Source of the DNA: a virus
IMG/VR virus record: IMGVR_UViG_3300024946_000001
Location: 1 to 37,471 of that record
DNA length: 37,471 nucleotides
Direction: 5' to 3' (one strand)
Shown: positions 13,599 to 25,328 of the stretch, piece by piece
Layout: each line of letters begins with the position of its first letter
How positions within the stretch are numbered: position 1 is the stretch's first letter
The notes under the pieces: model-generated
The model's input: only the letters and a program-made list of their open reading frames with translations
Databases searched by the model: none
Told to the model about the DNA's origin: nothing
Translations under genes and position numbers: made by a program

Positions 13599-13710
13599 TA
13601 TTCCTGCCAGTTCAATTGGTGCGCCACGAGGGATTTGAACCCATCTATCTATCGGTTATGAGCCGATTGCTTTTACCATTTAAGCTAGAGGCGCGTTATT
13701 CCTGCCAGTT
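13599..13710. repeat. 14-bp direct repeats flanking the tRNA
   Basis: TATTCCTGCCAGTT occurs at 13599-13612 and again at 13697-13710, immediately either side of the tRNA. A perfect 14-mer pair at that distance is unlikely by chance and looks like the scar of an insertion or a short duplication that brought the tRNA in. Confidence 0.7.
13617..13694 (-). tRNA. tRNA with CAU anticodon (Met or lysidine-Ile), imperfect T-arm
   Basis: On the minus strand the acceptor is GCGCCTC...GTGGCGC (one T-T mismatch). The D-stem is GCTT/AAGC, the anticodon stem ATCGG/CCGAT with loop CTCATAA (anticodon at 13658-13660), and the T-loop TTCAAAT with only three G-C pairs in its stem. The discriminator A and CCA are encoded. 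The D and anticodon arms are perfect, while acceptor and T-arm carry mismatches, so it may be partly decayed. It is the only complete tRNA seen, inside the left operon and flanked by a direct repeat. Confidence 0.75.
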
Positions 13711-24464: not shown

Positions 24465-24493
24465 TTGACACACACAAAATATAGGCGTATAAA
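24465..24493 (+). promoter_or_regulatory. Late promoter (PR'-like)
   Basis: -35 TTGACA (24465-24470), 17-base spacer, -10 TATAAA (24488-24493); predicted start near 24500. It is the best sigma70-type promoter in the window and lies right after the Q-like gene. It would drive the whole late operon around the circle to 9949 if the downstream terminators are overcome. Confidence 0.8.
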
Positions 24494-24570
24494 TATGTTT
24501 ACAACTTAATACCACTTCAATGTGAGATGACAGCTACCGTTTGGTAGCGTTGTCTACGGTAAAAGAATTG

Positions 24571-24600
24571 AAGCTCACATCTAACCATGTGGGCTTTTTT
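24571..24600 (+). terminator. First late-leader terminator (tR'-like) with competing helix
   Basis: AAGCTCACAT (24571-24580) pairs over 10 bp with ATGTGGGCTT (24587-24596), loop CTAACC, followed by T. About 70 bases of leader precede it. An upstream ATGTGAG (24520-24526) can pair with CTCACAT of the terminator stem, and CTTCAAT (24515-24521) with ATTGAAG (24567-24573), so alternative antiterminator folds are possible. A hairpin GCTACC-GTTT-GGTAGC (24533-24548) sits between. Confidence 0.85.
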
Positions 24601-24610
24601 ATTAAGATAC

Positions 24611-24763
24611 ATTAAGGCGTGGGTGTGCAAGTGACCCATATGCAGCACACATCTTGCCCAACAATCAAAGCGTCTGATGAGAGAGTAACGCCTCGAAACT
24701 GAAAAGTAGCGCGGAGTGTCCCATGTTGGGGAATAACTGGACACCAGTGGGTCACGCCTTAAT
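24611..24763 (+). ncRNA. Structured RNA candidate: four-way junction with pseudoknot
   Basis: The closing helix is ATTAAGGCGTG (24611-24621) with CACGCCTTAAT (24753-24763), 11 bp perfect. Inside are three further helices: GTGTGC/GCACAC (24623-24628/24645-24650), CCCAACA/TGTTGGG (24657-24663/24724-24730) and ACTGG/CCAGT (24736-24740/24744-24748). The loop of the first carries ACCC, which can pair with the junction linker GGGT (24749-24752). The third-helix interior holds CTGATGA and GAAA blocks like a hammerhead core. No credible gene lies here on either strand. Folding was done by eye. Confidence 0.55.
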
Positions 24764-24773
24764 ATATTTTATA

Positions 24774-24806
24774 CAGCCTCATTCTTAAGTGCGTGGGGCT
24801 TTTTTA
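24774..24806 (+). terminator. Second late-leader terminator
   Basis: AGCCTCA (24774-24780) pairs with TGGGGCT (24794-24800), 7 bp with one wobble, loop of 13 bases, followed by TTTTTA. Its 3' part (GTGGGGCTTTTTTATT) resembles the end of the first leader terminator (GTGGGCTTTTTTATT), as if duplicated. Confidence 0.7.
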
Positions 24807-24807
24807 T

Positions 24808-25140
24808 TGCCTATACGCACGCTGCTTAGTGCTACGAGTCTGTAGCGAGAGAGTAATGGTTAGCCATTTCGCACCTTAGTTGGTGAATAGGCGGTGTCCG
24901 TATATACAATTTTGCAAGAGTGCAGTTCGAGGGTCTGCACTTAAAACATTCCTCGAGCCAATTTACTATTTTGCACAGCGTAATTAGCGCATACCAAGCC
25001 AAAACAGAAATCAGGATATAACGCCTGACTGTGCAAATCCTAATTCTGCATCGTACGCGATATAAAAAGCAGATAGCTACCTTAGAGAGAACGTACAACT
25101 CTGCATCGTCTGTGGCGCGGTAGTAGTGAAAGCCACTTAC
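24808..25140 (+). ncRNA. Second structured RNA stretch with cloverleaf-like and pseudoknot elements
   Basis: No convincing gene is present. Helices seen: GCCTAT/ATAGGC (24809-24814/24887-24892) enclosing GCTAC/GTAGC, GCGA/TCGC with AATGG/CCATT, and CACC/GGTG. Then AGTGCAG/CTGCACT (24919-24925/24935-24941), whose loop TCGAGG pairs with CCTCGA (24951-24956), an H-type pseudoknot. Next TTTGCACAG/CTGTGCAAA (24970-24978/25029-25037) stacked on TCAGG/CCTGA, then TCTGC/GCAGA with ATCG/CGAT inside (25045-25073), and GCTACC/GGTAGT with GTGGC/GCCAC. It ends just before the ribosome site of 25155. It may be a 5' leader or a large ncRNA. Confidence 0.45.
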
Positions 25141-25154
25141 TTATAGGAATACAC

Positions 25155-25328
25155 ATGAAATTCACTGAACAAGAATTTTTAGATGCTTTATTACTTGCTG
25201 TTAATGAAGCTCAAGCATGGGCTGAAGAATCTAATGGCTACACAGAAAGAACCCATGAACTTGCACCATGCTACAAAATACTTGATAGCTATGGAATAGA
25301 CACAAGGGCAAAAGATGGCAGCACATAA
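25155..25328 (+). CDS. Small late-operon protein
   Basis: The product is 57 residues with AGGAAT 7 bases upstream: MKFTEQEFLDALLLAVNEAQ to DTRAKDGST. It is acidic and helical. It is the first gene after the structured leader and overlaps the next start by 14 bases. Function unknown. Confidence 0.6.
   Translation: MKFTEQEFLDALLLAVNEAQAWAEESNGYTERTHELAPCYKILDSYGIDTRAKDGST

Follow-up and report, generated by a model that had tools for sequence, protein, structure and literature searches.

A structured phage RNA family with a double-pseudoknot core and a hammerhead module at a fixed joint

Introduction

The gene-free segment at positions 24611-24763 of IMG/VR virus record IMGVR_UViG_3300024946_000001 (37,471 nt, the whole stretch of DNA that was analysed, hereafter the window) raises the question of whether it encodes a functional RNA and, if so, of what kind. 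An initial annotation of the letters had read it as a compact four-way junction with a pseudoknot in the late leader, either regulatory or an independent phage ncRNA. Homologues and covariation back a phage-encoded RNA at this position that is structured and functional and contains a pseudoknot, with a conserved fold other than a four-way junction.

Results

The locus and its surroundings

The segment is flanked by two intrinsic terminators on the + strand, which share repeat D3. Terminator 1 (24570-24602), found by the terminator scan, lies directly upstream; terminator 2 (24775-24805), an AGCCUC/GGGGCU stem followed by a U run, was identified directly downstream from the sequence and by the scripted terminator scan. 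The absence of a gene and the presence of an upstream promoter, both described before, were confirmed. The promoter, of near-consensus sigma-70 type (TTGACA-17 nt-TATAAA, 24465-24493, + strand), was read from the sequence upstream of the leader and is not in the list of the promoter scanner because the scanner demands T at the sixth -10 position. Since NinB and other recombination genes lie upstream, and the genes for both terminase subunits (small and large) and the portal lie downstream, "late leader" is a fair label. No Q or Q-like antiterminator protein was recognised just upstream in the window. The window's only tRNA (13617-13694) is far from the RNA, and the window copy is thus not within a few nucleotides of a tRNA. 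Beyond terminator 2 we observed a further 350-nt gene-poor stretch with hairpins (24810-25155), in which the repeat GAGAGAGTAA, present at 24679 (hammerhead stem II, below), occurs again at 24847.

The 11-bp helix said to close the segment (24611-24621 with 24753-24763) is there as claimed. It extends into a stalk, P1, whose 5' strand (24603-24620, + strand) and 3' strand (24754-24771, + strand) form the inverted repeat I1 (19 nt, 89% complementary), and 0 of 200 shuffles were as good as this 18-nt stalk. The folding energy was better than that of shuffled controls but not extreme (-48.3 versus a shuffle mean of -40.8 kcal/mol, z -2.25, four of 200 as good).

Homologues and distribution

A blastn search of the region matched Dickeya/Pectobacterium phages, an Enterobacter phage, Acinetobacter plasmids and E. 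coli prophages, each match covering part of the element only, and these relatives carry the halves of the element in reverse order relative to the window. Searching with a 20-base pattern built on the conserved GGGGAAUAACUGG...CCAG retrieved 41 viral-contig stretches from IMG/VR, and two more patterns added others. A core-B pattern with loose gaps gave many chance-like matches without a parsable core and was tightened. Parsing yielded 55 distinct elements, later 68, from IMG/VR contigs, phage isolates, E. coli prophages and one Acinetobacter plasmid. Similar, though not identical, core-A patterns retrieved 41 IMG/VR stretches compared to two in 84,980 species genomes. One Pseudomonas genome and one Patescibacteria genome carry the element, and it was absent from all 24 further genomes checked in the genus of Pseudomonas nitroreducens. 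Since it is otherwise absent from the genomes searched, the RNA is mainly viral. Named members infect Enterobacteriaceae and their relatives, Mycobacterium, Arthrobacter and Microcystis. A model built from 27 sequences recovered members outside its training set (L176, L080, L166 and phages Constance, Gaia and Mwe-JY26).

The Rfam search proposed in the initial annotation returned no family for the core at gathering or permissive thresholds. The core has no Rfam 15 family, and no description of the RNA was found in the open-licence PMC literature. No co-conserved protein partner of the elements was found.

Two other features were observed among these genomes. A second conserved late-leader module, CAACAGGTAAGAGCA-insert-TGCTCTTTCCGTTGTGGTGAATGCGCAGG, occurs in enterobacterial phages (L012:554-600, L192, L193, L194); up to 189 phage records match its 3' half, and its inserts vary, one containing a T-arm-like GGGTTCGAATCCC. 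Near this module, L192 has weak matches to permuted tmRNA and beta-tmRNA (E=0.025). The int-alpA RNA (Rfam RF02996) was found at L007:7680-7742, in an E. coli prophage that also bears the RNA described here.

The core fold

Comparison of the members gives good support to a predicted core of two hairpins, P2 and P4, in which each loop pairs with the 3' flank of the other hairpin to form a nested double pseudoknot. The core is ~95 nt long, has the helix order P2, PK1, P2', PK2, P4, PK2', P4', PK1', and contains dozens of nucleotides that are invariant in an alignment of 27 sequences. Each half starts with an invariant motif on the + strand: core B with CGUGG (24618-24622) and core A with CGCGGA (24710-24715). 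The P2 hairpin (24623-24650, + strand; stem 24623-24628/24645-24650) is paired in 97.5% of alignment cells, with double changes in five of its six pairs, and the P4 hairpin (24716-24744, + strand; stem 24716-24721/24739-24744) in 100%, with double changes in four of six. PK1 joins 24631-24639 in the P2 loop to 24747-24755 (both + strand; 96.3% paired, double changes in eight of nine pairs). PK2 joins 24657-24663 to 24724-24730 (both + strand; double changes in three pairs, three invariant G-C pairs), and its 3' strand shares the P4 loop with the conserved GAAUAACU (24731-24738, + strand). The window carries CGUGG, CGCGGA and GAAUAACU together with P2, P4, PK1 and PK2, the features that define the family, and scores 131.7 bits with model R1, being itself among the R1 members. 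Because both PK1 and the closing helix, at its inner end, use 24753-24755, the two compete there.

Over the 32 pairs of the 27-sequence alignment, 95.6% of cells were paired, compared to 70.8% after shuffling and 33-42% with partners slid. Double changes were seen in 209 cells, and 0 of 500 shuffles were as good. The covariation score was 0.636, against 0.140 for shuffled alignments and at most 0.10 with partners slid. Since the parser demanded P2 and P4 pairing when elements were picked, the unbiased structural evidence comes from the two pseudoknots. At fixed offsets, 86% of PK1 cells paired over 50 distinct pairs, compared to 56% when shuffled (maximum 61%), and 94% of PK2 cells paired, compared to 75%. 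Both pseudoknots were found by RNAalifold unprompted. The homologues carry compensatory base changes, the lack of which would have refuted the initial annotation. The RNA is on the + strand, as fixed by an invariant U-G pair that closes PK1 and by the strand of the hammerhead. Small ORFs are annotated across the element in phages Pappous, Taid and Constance; a coding function was rejected on the strength of the base-pair covariation. In Arthrobacter phage Constance (L201:2342-2541), the small "hypothetical proteins" 67/68 are annotated over an apparent unannotated tRNA 3' end and this RNA.

The ACCC/GGGT complementarity noted earlier is genuine and is the middle of PK1, a 9-bp helix larger than the one proposed. 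Among the three helices placed inside the closing helix, one is the conserved P2 and the second is the conserved PK2. The third is a hairpin of the energy fold (CUGGA...CCAGU); it is not conserved and clashes with the covarying P4. A four-way junction is therefore not the conserved fold. The earlier reading had missed P4, PK2 as a pseudoknot, the hammerhead and the circular permutation described below.

The hammerhead module

The segment between the core halves of the window is a predicted hammerhead ribozyme (24670-24712, + strand). It comprises stem I (24670-24673/24709-24712), CUGAUGA (24674-24680), stem II (24681-24694), GAAA (24695-24698) and stem III (24698-24700/24705-24707), all on the + strand, with a predicted cut at 24708^24709, a site that in most members lies just 5' of the invariant CGCGGA. 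The window module, GCGU-CUGAUGA-GAGAGUAACGCCUC-GAAA-CUGAAAAGU-A^GCGC, has CUGANGA, GAAA and stems I-III in the type I / CGS order and the cleavage triplet GUA. The general joint sequence is GCGY-CUGANGA-stem II-GAAA-stem III-U-H^N-CGCGGA, and the homologous module keeps the catalytic nucleotides, U16.1 and H17. The last two were not imposed by the search, yet U16.1 is U in every hammerhead-bearing element of the fixed-offset set and H17 is A, C or U, never G. The module is present in 50 of the 68 elements, always at one fixed place between the core halves. The hammerhead consensus and the placement of the elements are well supported.

Matches to Rfam were weak. Hammerhead_1 matched L007 (E=4e-4) and HH9 matched L031 (E=3.5e-4), both below gathering scores, and a sub-threshold match was obtained in L012 (E=0.003). 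The window copy had no Rfam hammerhead match under any threshold, gathering included, and was filed as a putative hammerhead-bearing element by homology rather than by Rfam score. This copy retains the catalytic nucleotides. Its stem II has 3 bp and a bulge, its stem I ends in G-U, and its hammerhead fold is predicted at -3.4 kcal/mol, compared to -6.0 kcal/mol for an alternative local fold. Because the stems are short and the alternative fold is more stable, activity of the window copy is uncertain; this copy may be cleaved at 24708^24709. Catalytic residues are mutated in the hammerheads of Gaia and L188, and a joint of 3-4 nt takes the place of the module in L011, L015, L097, L173 and L179. 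L010 and Mwe-JY26 are hammerhead-less as well. About a quarter of the elements have no intact hammerhead, and cleavage is therefore not essential to the core. Stem I uses core nucleotides, the CGC of CGCGGA, so that folding of the core and of the ribozyme is coupled.

Circular permutation of the core halves

Two gene orders of the halves exist, circular permutations of each other: BA in 49 elements and AB in 19. Constance has the BA order and L007 the AB order. In the BA order, that of the window, P1 is the closing stalk and the hammerhead lies inside; in the AB order the hammerhead is at the 5' end and P1 is an internal hairpin. The hammerhead is present in 32 BA elements and missing from 17; it is present in 18 of the 19 AB elements, and the remaining one (L006) has a relic. 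P1 of BA elements is long in most, usually 15-23 bp, and its sequence differs from phage to phage. P0, a further helix that encloses the AB copies of E. coli, was considered as part of the RNA and rejected, since this scaffold also occurs in phages without the core. In L080/G003 (L080:11189-11447, G003:C1:1-102) a BA unit is tandemly duplicated with a 224-bp period across contig ends, and P1' is opposed to the following P1 in just the way seen in the AB hairpin. A duplication route to permutation predicts this arrangement, which may also be an assembly effect at the contig ends. Collectively, comparison of the sequences gives good support to the homology, strand and fold of the elements, their circular permutation and the hammerhead consensus at its fixed joint.

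Placement beside late genes and tRNAs

Many members lie between late genes of the same direction, in terL-portal (L040, L060) and scaffold-capsid (L011/L041) intervals or before terS (L027, L057), and the copies in the window and in E. coli occupy late leaders, with Q-region genes upstream of them. These sites would suit a cis-acting element for mRNA processing or stability, in which the hammerhead splits the late mRNA and the new 5'-hydroxyl end, capped by the double pseudoknot, resists 5'-end-dependent decay. In L060 (L060:3500-3560, minus strand), the P1 stalk covers an AAGGAG ribosome-binding site, runs up to the start of the next gene downstream and could thus affect translation there. 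The tight placement between head genes and this stalk both count against a discrete trans-acting ncRNA. However, mRNA halves of the BA order would remain joined via PK1, PK2 and P1 after the cut, the core is unchanged in members without the hammerhead, and members in tRNA arrays have no adjacent mRNA to protect. We therefore regard a cis-acting element as unlikely.

The RNA is often wedged between tRNA genes, at 1-9 nt from them in tRNA arrays. In four cases called by ARAGORN (L010, L015, L030, L034), the 3' end of a tRNA is followed after 1-2 nt by CGUGG, and the next tRNA starts 3-5 nt past PK1 in L010, L015 and L030; in AB elements of tRNA arrays it starts 6-9 nt past PK2. Gaia and Constance show the same tRNA abutment, as judged by eye. 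The tRNA flanks and P1 mark the same ends, which suggests an excised RNA. As an observation in its own right, this RNA shares the 7-kb viral contig L010 (L010:2407-7126) with 27 tRNA genes and a full bacterial RNase P RNA (266 bits).

Theta ribozymes cut tRNA 3' trailers and lie within 5 nt of tRNAs (PMC10879173), and the abutment of CGUGG on tRNAs, together with a double pseudoknot of dozens of invariant nucleotides, would also fit a core that is itself an uncharacterised ribozyme cutting its own 5' boundary, the hammerhead being a second cutter. We consider this improbable, as the topology differs from that of HDV-like ribozymes and no Rfam HDV model matched, many BA elements pair the CGU of the putative site within P1, and in the AB order the site would sit inside the molecule. 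Least probable of the alternatives is a natural aptazyme, a ribozyme-based riboswitch of the late leader in which ligand sensing by the double pseudoknot would govern the hammerhead: stem I is indeed made of core nucleotides, but the core is equally conserved where the hammerhead is missing or its catalytic nucleotides are mutated (L015, L097, Gaia, L188) and the downstream gene is not constant.

Discussion

Of the two options raised at the outset, regulatory or independent, an independent phage ncRNA is the better one, because copies in other phages lie between tRNAs or head genes and rarely in a leader. We give a probability of roughly 60% to the reading that the segment codes for a discrete, structured ncRNA of the phage, belonging to a widespread, non-Rfam family, excised from late transcripts, nicked or 5'-trimmed by a hammerhead, and probably acting in trans. 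The RNA would be transcribed late, after read-through of terminator 1. Its excision would fall to host RNases that attack the long P1 stalk (RNase III-like) or, in tRNA arrays, to tRNA processing. In most members the embedded hammerhead would break one phosphodiester just 5' of CGCGGA. The cut would yield, in the BA order of the window, a two-piece RNA held by PK1, PK2 and P1, and in the AB order it would trim the 5' end. The product would most likely act in trans as a stable RNA particle, and candidate targets common to many bacteria are a host RNA, the translation machinery or an RNA-targeting defence. Self-cleavage, excision, trans action and target are inferred.

More tentatively, the elements may form a virus-borne class of trans-acting RNA that is a two-piece particle, with a target common to bacteria as different as gamma-proteobacteria, actinobacteria and cyanobacteria. 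A self-made hammerhead break would create new termini, evolution could then close the old ones, and natural circular permutants would arise in different phages, with the L080/G003 tandem duplicate as the expected intermediate. We hold this to be possible but doubtful.

The elements appear to be a structured RNA family, spread over phages of distantly related bacteria, that is undescribed in the open-licence PMC literature and Rfam 15. No known family fits the core, and the label "hammerhead" would cover one removable module only. The family gives a concrete setting for the open question of the role of hammerheads in prophages and an example, with a plausible route, of natural circular permutation in an RNA larger than a small ribozyme. 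If it acts in trans, many phages would exploit a conserved host RNA target. Testable isolates carry members (Constance, Gaia, Pappous, Taid and Mwe-JY26).

Comparison with known systems

Permuted tmRNA functions as two pieces, is encoded in circularly permuted order and is broken by host tRNA processing. The likeness is by analogy only: both RNAs are two-piece and permuted in gene order, whereas the RNA described here has no tRNA-like or tag module and would be broken by a ribozyme.

GOLLD and ROOL are phage ncRNAs of unknown function that are often near tRNA islands and rich in pseudoknots (PMC12286853), features shared by this RNA. They are several hundred nucleotides long, whereas this RNA has a core of ~95 nt plus the hammerhead, and their Rfam covariance models matched neither the window nor any homologue scanned; the initial annotation, which assigned the segment to neither, was right in this.

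Theta ribozymes are HDV-like, tRNA-associated ribozymes of gut phages (PMC10879173). Like them, this RNA is phage-borne, tRNA-adjacent (1-2 nt in members in tRNA arrays) and a double pseudoknot. The helix order differs, however, and the recognised self-cleaving motif here is a hammerhead; no HDV-like catalytic-cytosine junction was recognised and the HDV-like Rfam models gave no match.

With the hammerheads of bacteria and prophages (Perreault 2011, PMC3088659; RF00163, RF02275) the elements share CUGANGA, GAAA, three stems, an NUH triplet and the association with phages. The hammerhead reported in phage PaP3 (PMC3088659) was considered as a family member and rejected, as it lies in another context without the core. 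In contrast to these hammerheads, the window copy scores below Rfam thresholds, and the ribozyme here is one part of a larger conserved RNA, inserted as a module at a fixed joint.
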